From Tatumella sp. JGM91 (GTDB lineage Bacteria > Pseudomonadota > Gammaproteobacteria > Enterobacterales > Enterobacteriaceae), in contig NZ_JAERJP010000022.1 of the NCBI RefSeq assembly GCF_018257575.1, positions 1 through 52,776 of the forward strand: a stretch of DNA of 52,776 bases, read 5' to 3'. The notes under the pieces were generated by a model. It saw only the letters and a program-made list of their open reading frames with translations, was not told the origin of the DNA and did not search any database. Below are positions 16,584-18,015 of this stretch, piece by piece (the first letter of the stretch is position 1; every line of letters begins with the position of its first letter). The translations under genes and the position numbers were made by a program.

Positions 16584-18015
16584 GGATTTTTTATGGGGAG
16601 GCGCCATCGCTGCTAATCAGGCAGAAGGGGCATGGCTGGAAGGCGGAAAAGGCTGGAGTGTGGCGGACATTAACCGCTTTATTCCGGAAGAAGAGATCCG
16701 TCGCCTGTCAAATAAGGAAATGGATACTGCCACAATATGCCGTCTGATGGCTGATCAGCACAGCATTTTTCCCAAAAGAAATGCCATCGGTTTTTATCAT
16801 AACTACCAGCAAGATCTGCAGCTGATGGCGGGTCTGGGGATGAAAACATTCAGAACTTCCATCAGCTGGGCCCGGGTATTTCCGCGGGGCGATGAACAAC
16901 AACCGAATGCGGAGGCACTGGCATGGTATGACCGGCTAATCAGCACTATCTGTGACTATGGTATGCAACCAATGATCACCCTCTCCCATTATGAGATGCC
17001 CCTGACACTGGCCCTCGAATACAATGGCTGGTCAGACCGGCGGGTGATTGATATGTTTGTGCGTTTTGCCCGTGTCTGCCTGCAACGCTACCGGCACCAG
17101 GTGCGCTACTGGATCCCCGTCAACCAGATCAATCTGATCCGTTATGAGTCTTTTAATCATTTAGGGATCCCTGCCGACCGCGTCAGTGATCTGCGACAGG
17201 CGAAATACCAGGCTGTGCATCATGAAATGGTGGCATCGGCTAAAATTAAACAGTTCGCCCGTCAGCTGGATCCCGGTTTACAGATCGGCATGATGCTGTA
17301 CTGTGATTATGCTTATCCCGCCACCACCGATCCCCGGGATGTGCTGGCCGCTCAGCAACGTAATCAGATGGAATATTACTTTGCCGATATATTACTGCGG
17401 GGAAGTTATCCGGGCTATGCGCTGCGTTTCTTTGATGACCACCATATCAGCCTGAGAGTGACCCCGCAGGACCGCGAGGACCTGCAACATACCGCCGATT
17501 TTATGTCGTTTTCCTATTACTACACCAGCGTGACCGATCGGGAAATTGTTGTTTCAGACAGTCACAACAGCCGCCCTAACCCGTTGCTTAAAGAAAGTCC
17601 CTGGGGCTGGGCCATTGATCCTGTCGGGCTGCGGACCGTGTTAAATGAATACTGGGGACGCTGGCAAAAACCGATAATGATTACCGAGAACGGTATTGGC
17701 TGCTTTGACCGGCTGGCGGAAGGCCGGATTAATGATGATTACCGGATCGACTATATCAGGGCTCATCTGCAACAGTTACAACAGGCGATGGCCGATGGTG
17801 TACCGGTACTGGGTTATTATCTGTGGTCACCGATTGATATCGTCAGTTGTTCTTCCTCACAAATGGAAAAACGCTACGGGCTGATTTATGTTGATCGGGA
17901 TGACTACGGAGAAGGCAGCGGACAACGTATATGTAAGCAAAGCTACTACTGGTACCAGCAAGTGATTGCCAGCCGGGGCGCAATACTGTCATGTCATGCC
18001 GATCACGCCGAATAA
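16558..18015 (+). CDS. GH1 6-phospho-beta-glucosidase-like enzyme with Gln at the acid/base position
   Basis: 485 residues from the ATG at 16558 (CAGGGAGAA upstream). It is clearly in the BglA/AscB branch of GH1: [15 protein letters not shown] at the start, [26 protein letters not shown], and the 6-phosphate loop S...[12 protein letters not shown] with the Ser, Lys and Tyr. The nucleophile is E377 in MITENGIG. The acid/base motif, normally NEI, reads NQI: codon 190 is CAG (17125-17127) in [10 protein letters not shown]. Plant myrosinases carry this Glu-to-Gln change and hydrolyse thioglucosides. The enzyme may therefore act on phosphorylated S-glucosides or others with good leaving groups, or be inactive. 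Confidence 0.9.

Follow-up and report, generated by a model that had tools for sequence, protein, structure and literature searches.

The nearest described proteins to the gene considered here are the 6-phospho-beta-glucosidases of glycoside hydrolase family 1 (GH1), of which several structures have been solved (6wgd, BglA-2 4ipl, LpPbg1 3qom, SmBgl 3pn8 and Escherichia coli BglA 2xhy) and which in their classical form carry an acid/base Glu at the end of strand beta4. GH1 proteins with a natural Gln at that place are represented by the plant myrosinases (Sinapis alba 1myr/1e4m/1dwa; Myrosinase 1, 7z1i) and, according to the accessible part of PMC1781453, by rice Os4bglu14 and Os9bglu33, whose product may lack hydrolase activity. 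A phosphotransferase system (PTS) permease combined with a GH1 phospho-glycosidase is already described as a route for the thioglucoside sinigrin in Companilactobacillus farciminis (CfPttS and CfPbgS; PMC8660893, cited here from the portions available). Here we consider a GH1 gene for a protein of 485 amino acids at positions 16558..18015 of a 52,776-nucleotide stretch from the plant-associated bacterium Tatumella sp. JGM91 (NZ_JAERJP010000022.1; contig C14 of genome G000), referred to as the window; congeners of this strain include Tatumella morbirosei and T. saanichensis, and all features given below lie on the plus strand. We favour, with a probability of about 0.58, the reading that this gene is a member of a PTS-coupled subfamily of GH1 phospho-glycosidases that arose once, in which the acid/base residue has been replaced by Gln and kept, and which would be active on 6-phospho-glycosides with good leaving groups.

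The gene was assigned by Pfam, NCBIfam and alignments to entries of the PDB. Its product matches Pfam Glyco_hydro_1 (E = 5.4e-118) with the (beta/alpha)8 fold, and is by fold, nucleophile and phosphate site a predicted GH1 phospho-glycosidase that lacks the acid/base Glu of the classical 6-phospho-beta-glucosidases, with which it also has most of the glycon site and a PTS operon setting in common. The top NCBIfam matches are 6-phospho-beta-glucosidase models, all of which scored below their curated cut-offs (491.7 bits for the best, against 623). As the initial annotation had pointed out, codon 190 is CAG (17125..17127) and places a Gln in an NQI motif (17122-17130), where Glu is the aligned residue in all three PDB alignments printed (6wgd, 4ipl, 3qom). 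Glu180 of LpPbg1 is the predicted catalytic acid/base in the available text of PMC3605045. In a structural model of the window protein strand beta4 would span residues 184-189, with Gln190 at the strand end.

Homologues at this locus do not all carry Glu. Four of six Tatumella genomes have the gene, each with Gln, and the remaining two have just a Glu-type paralogue among their matches. Of the 25 Gln-type genes, 16 use CAG for residue 190 and 9 use CAA; both codons being in use, the Gln appears to be held while the codon drifts, with the caveat that Gln and Glu codons are one base apart. The ratio of nonsynonymous to synonymous substitution rates (dN/dS) of the window gene is 0.061 (YN00) or 0.078 (NG86) against its counterpart in genome G001, and 0.064 (NG86, near saturation) against that of T. 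morbirosei; the pair with T. saanichensis was not computable. The gene is thus under purifying selection in Tatumella, and a sequencing error or a decaying gene is ruled out by the Gln in four assemblies, the use of both codons and a dN/dS of 0.06-0.08. The window genome also holds a Glu-type GH1 paralogue (L002, G000:C33:178307-179692), 48% identical to the window protein, with one in-frame TAG that breaks its frame, so that residue 190 was typed from its pieces.

The phylogenetic distribution of the Gln type is wide, the 25 distinct proteins coming from Enterobacterales, Bacilli, Lachnospiraceae and Actinomycetota, with a mean identity of 57% that falls to as low as 41%. A protein scan with one genome per species returned seven loci, one Glu-type and six Gln-type (T. 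morbirosei, T. saanichensis, two Actinomycetota assemblies, Lacrimispora celerecrescens and a Lachnospiraceae strain). Pattern scans matched in 3 of 392 genomes of the order of G302 and 1 of 255 of its class, in 3 of 245 of the order of G300 and 3 of 256 of its phylum, and in 3 of 99 of the family of G000; these samples overlap, and the counts are lower bounds since INQIN escapes the patterns, and FNQIN and NQVN escape the strict one as well. A tblastn search of plasmid records gave 286 matches at 1e-120, and the four loci read among the best five of these (Enterobacter ludwigii, Enterococcus gilvus, Niallia taxi and Listeria monocytogenes) are all Gln-type. Where relatives of this type are annotated, they are named plain GH1 or beta-glucosidase.

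For the trees, rows were labelled as Gln- or Glu-type by residue 190 alone, and that column was left out of the two later ones. An initial tree of 13 Gln and 42 Glu rows placed the Gln rows on one side of a branch with support of 100/100; the same support was obtained without column 190 for 17 Gln and 42 Glu rows, and the final tree of 25 Gln and 57 Glu proteins, also without that column and made by a quicker method, splits at one branch (SH-aLRT 99). On these trees the Gln clade is of one origin, although L079, L093 and L049 sit on long branches and are placed unsurely; dropped before the final count were the duplicates L089, L089_1 and L091 and an incomplete Glu-type protein (L095_1). Of the suggestion that an NQI clade might be conserved beside RpiR-EIIBC genes, the conserved clade holds and the tie to that gene pair does not, most other neighbourhoods read having a PTS of lactose/cellobiose type.

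A chance-motif reading was considered and set aside. In Enterobacterales the loose pattern NQIN matched in 8 of 295 genomes and the window match alone was a GH1, the seven others having no GH1 in their 3-kb loci; in the orders of G302 and G300 the pattern matches lay in a GH1 gene in six of six cases. Bias from having searched for Gln was likewise rejected, as residue-blind profile searches also separate the groups among the loci fetched. For the family of G1187 (Actinomycetota), searched in 35 genomes, the 20 fetched loci divide into six scoring at least 631 bits, all Gln-type, and 14 scoring 618 bits or less, all Glu-type, most lower matches and one 804-bit copy of G1529 lying outside the fetched set. 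For the order of G302, with 116 genomes searched, 39 matches were listed; the 30 fetched comprised one Gln-type (917 bits) and 29 Glu-type proteins (603 bits or less), the other nine being lower-scoring. The Enterobacterales search, in which at most five candidates were scored per genome and some may be missed, added four further matches, all Glu-type. An E. coli GH1 beside marRAB (L087) was tried as a clade member and is Glu-type. One Gln-type GH1 of G1187 reads FNQIN and lacks the core ESFNHLG motif, and therefore the Gln stays while the aglycone loop varies. The same genome has a neighbouring pair of Gln-type GH1 genes that differ in subtype (L080, G1187:C11), and G1529 likewise has two high-scoring copies.

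The residues that surround the substrate were transferred from LpPbg1 and SmBgl, as given in the accessible part of PMC3605045 for the glycon, phosphate and aglycone sites, to the window protein by way of the PDB alignment; no position could be assigned to Asn183 or Phe316, and Glu332, being uncertain, was excluded. Both the nucleophile and the phosphate loop are retained, as had been claimed. The predicted nucleophile E377 (17686..17688) lies in the motif ITENG (17680-17694), which has the GH1 form (I/V)-x-E-N-G, and is present in 25/25 of the clade. Among seven glycon residues named in that paper, five (Q21, H144, N189, E377 and W423) are kept in all 25 proteins and two are changed, namely 190 to Gln and 431 to Cys. 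C431 and the 6-phosphate loop S432...MEKRYG lie at 17848..17880 (from residue mapping and clade counts), and the loop provides the Ser/Lys/Tyr site, with K438 and Y440 in 25/25 and S432 in 23/25. In contrast to the glycon side, which is mostly kept, the aglycone (+1) side is rebuilt, with changes at 200, 272 and 322. Y322 (17521..17523), at the +1-subsite place of SmBgl Met314, is shared by 22 of the 25 Gln-type proteins, and none of the 57 Glu-type ones has a Tyr there. By a threshold of our own, 23 positions are clade-specific in a comparison of 21 Gln with 43 Glu rows, and five of these (190, 200, 272, 322 and 431) are among the 15 mapped; without position 190, 4 of 22 are among 14 mapped (P = 0.0027, post hoc).

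Two of the new residues are acidic and raise the rival explanation that the acid/base has merely moved: E272, E197 or a group of the aglycone would protonate the leaving group, in an ordinary mechanism with displaced parts. E272 (17371..17373) lies at the +1-subsite place of LpPbg1 Arg267, where 21 of the 25 Gln-type proteins have an acidic residue (20 Glu, 1 Asp) and none of the 57 Glu-type ones does; E197 (17146..17148), in the beta4-alpha4 loop seven residues after the Gln, is Glu in 22/25 against 2/57. The part of PMC3605045 available places Arg267 within the +1 subsite and assigns the beta4-alpha4 region to that subsite and the entrance, which speaks for such a shift, yet it also has Arg267 touching O2 and O3 of the +1 sugar and not the bridging oxygen. 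Position 272 is Glu in 19 of 20 core members, but the five non-core members have T, S, E, R and D there (the letters of L079 and L080_2 depend on the alignment, being M and D or T and S), and three of them lack E197, while Gln190 is constant throughout. E272 was accordingly rejected as a universal replacement acid, and we regard relocation in general as unlikely.

The favoured reading, in which the Gln-type enzymes work with the acid/base residue lost, would proceed as follows. A beta-glycoside would be imported by the PTS and phosphorylated at O6, its phosphate being held by S432, K438 and Y440. Attack of E377 on the anomeric carbon would give a covalent sugar-6-phosphate enzyme, and the aglycone, held in the rebuilt +1 pocket, would depart without a proton from the beta4 residue, because it is proposed to be a good leaving group, for instance a thiolate, an acyl group or an acidic phenol. 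Gln190 would contribute a hydrogen bond rather than a proton. Glucose-6-phosphate would then be released by water or another small nucleophile, slowly or with outside help, as in plant myrosinase. Catalysis itself, the substrate class and the release step are deductions in this scheme. An acyl, phenolic or other activated O-glycoside is a tentative guess for the substrate, with some other compound rated the same, and an S-glucoside is somewhat more doubtful than either.

Several points weigh against this mechanism. The reading comes from sequence comparison and not from activity. With the base absent, the sugar-enzyme intermediate should break down slowly, and, to our knowledge, bacteria are not expected to supply ascorbate. 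The carboxylate gained at 272 in 21 of the 25 members might be a substitute for the lost one, and the clade could be a binding protein. Position 431 lies in the glycon site and is altered, from Ala to Cys, in 23/25 Gln-type against 2/57 Glu-type proteins, and the glycon side is therefore not wholly untouched. No neighbouring gene names the aglycone in the neighbourhoods read, where one locus has a sulfatase and three have EamA genes.

Retaining beta-glycosidases with an engineered change of the acid/base behave as thioglycoligases, and the clade might by analogy be a natural glycoligase, in which not water but a thiol, carboxylate or phosphate acceptor receives the intermediate. The nucleophile, K438 and Y440, kept in 25/25, suit such a role, but no acceptor-making gene recurs beside the clade in the neighbourhoods read and the context looks catabolic, and this option is very improbable. 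Equally improbable is a non-catalytic pseudoenzyme that would bind sugar phosphates or regulate. The residue used by relatives is lost, and the Glu-to-Gln protein Gan1D-E170Q (4ze5, 4zfm), changed at an equal place as far as numbering tells, is titled a catalytic mutant in the entries, as far as these were available, and was crystallised with cellobiose-6-phosphate; that change was made in the laboratory, unlike the natural and conserved Gln here. Against a pseudoenzyme are E377 and four further glycon residues kept in 25/25, and, in Tatumella G004, the Gln-type protein as the sole GH1 matched. The dead enzyme that the initial annotation had listed among its options is similarly disfavoured by conservation and by dN/dS.

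The comparison with plant myrosinases divides in two. The clade shares with them GH1 membership and a Gln at the acid/base place (INQL in four distinct PDB sequences). It differs in lying in the 6-phospho branch of GH1, with a phosphate loop. In Sinapis myrosinase (1myr) the sulfate-binding residues are presumably Arg194 and Arg259. By hand alignment, Arg194 corresponds to position 197 (equal offset from the Gln, ungapped) and Arg259 approximately to about position 250; neither position has Arg in any of the 25 proteins, and 197 is Glu in 22. The window protein is outside the plant myrosinase group and resembles it solely in lacking the acid/base carboxylate. We infer that the bacterial Gln arose separately from the plant one because 57 Glu-type bacterial proteins surround the clade, on a tree that consists of bacterial proteins and has no plant sequence. 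Of the earlier analogy, the mechanistic half survives and the glucosinolate half is not supported, the sulfate-site Arg residues having no counterpart.

A PTS-linked phospho-myrosinase acting on glucosinolate-6-phosphates is consequently quite unlikely, although several observations would suit it besides the shared Gln. The sinigrin route of C. farciminis pairs a PTS with a GH1 enzyme, a likeness that covers operon type: there IIA, IIB and IIC are in one protein, and the identity of CfPbgS with BglA and AscB of E. coli is 48-50%. Among the neighbours of Gln-type genes are a sulfatase gene after the GH1 gene (L019) and a disulfide reductase-rhodanese-TusA-DsrE fusion convergent with it (L041), but such sulfur genes occur at single loci each. 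Rice Os4bglu14 and Os9bglu33, plant GH1s with no PTS link, carry the same Gln (PMC1781453, from the portions available), and the Gln alone is therefore no mark of a thioglucosidase. A further consideration comes from E. coli, whose BglA and AscB we take to be Glu-type. Since bglA and ascB have a part in how E. coli O157:H7 degrades sinigrin, according to the accessible part of a review (PMC6767122), thioglucosides may enter by a PTS and be cut without Gln, which weakens the link between Gln and thioglucosides. In the literature searched, with match lists available in part and most subscription journals outside its coverage, no PTS-linked GH1 with Gln turned up.

Exchange of Glu for Gln at the acid/base place is a standard laboratory means of disabling a retaining glycosidase. 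The same change is here natural; the tree gives it a single origin, and bacteria of soil, plants and gut retain it at identities as low as 41%. Conservation of a neutral residue suggests that the family cuts a type of sugar compound yet to be recognised. In its broadest form, that across at least three bacterial phyla a PTS-fed GH1 subfamily lost its acid/base once, independently of plants, and cleaves 6-phospho-glycosides whose aglycone leaves by itself (S-, acyl-, N- or acidic O-linked), the proposal has slightly less than an even chance. If this holds, "beta-glucosidase" genes in these operons would be misnamed, including that of Listeria monocytogenes, and a whole nutrient route would be unassigned. 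Either acid-free glycoside cleavage is wider in nature than myrosinase implies, or the acid has moved, or a sugar-phosphate-binding role has been missed; residue 190 in any case offers a one-residue rule for flagging operons with a doubtful "beta-glucosidase" label.

In the window the GH1 gene follows a PTS EIIBC permease gene of the beta-glucoside/sucrose group (15210..16583), as the initial annotation had it, the two overlapping by 26 bases. PTS_EIIC and PTS_EIIB score above their Pfam cut-offs; the top NCBIfam model, PTS-II-ABC-beta (347 bits), is under its cut-off, and no EIIA domain was matched in this protein by Pfam or NCBIfam. Upstream is a probable RpiR-type regulator (14329..15096), its start set from Tatumella orthologues and its place the same in L014 and L015; the label RpiR is weak, since HTH_6 scores 24.6 bits, below the Pfam gathering threshold of 28.3. 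The order hisI-like gene, regulator, EIIBC, GH1 and amino-acid binding protein is common to the window, T. morbirosei and T. saanichensis. Downstream of the operon an ArgT/HisJ-like binding protein gene (18124-18981) and an AstE/AspA-like gene (19085-20203), probably a separate unit, also keep their order in these two species.

The RpiR-EIIBC context is found in the window, T. morbirosei and T. saanichensis, and an Enterobacter ludwigii plasmid (L083) has the Gln-type GH1 gene with EIIBC and an OprB porin; this plasmid is typed as conjugative, and the operon lies near RND efflux genes. In most other neighbourhoods read, the PTS genes are of the lactose/cellobiose type and a PRD/BglG-type regulator usually accompanies them, neighbours being mostly judged by eye (exceptions are L082, by Pfam, and the annotated records L084 and L086) in a survey that left aside Niallia (L085), L017 and loci L088-L107. 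At L019 an RpiR-like gene is present, and no PRD regulator was seen by eye. An EamA permease adjoins the GH1 gene at L040 and L082 (both by Pfam) and L081 (by eye), which hints weakly at export of the aglycone. L081 (G1480:C4:51500-68000), from a genome listed as 85% complete, has broken EIIC, GH1 and regulator frames, which may be decay or assembly errors. The sulfatase gene directly after the GH1 gene of a Lachnospiraceae strain is at L019:7454-8947, the rhodanese fusion at L041:4394-6901, and at L044:8662-12006 RpiR-like (by eye), SIS-domain (Pfam) and PTS EIIBC-like (by eye) genes come right after the GH1 gene; the sulfatase, the fusion and the SIS-domain gene, at a single locus each, were not used as substrate clues.

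The Listeria monocytogenes locus has the order IIB-IIC-IIA-GH1-PRD beside a vga(G)-like ABC-F gene. By gene order we take it to be lmo0914-lmo0918 of strain EGD-e, with lmo0917 as the GH1 gene. In the accessible parts of two transcript studies, which show no enzyme assay, lmo0917 is up in soil extract (PMC3179493), and lmo0914-0916, there called cellobiose-specific, are up inside host cells in all strains compared (PMC3464598).
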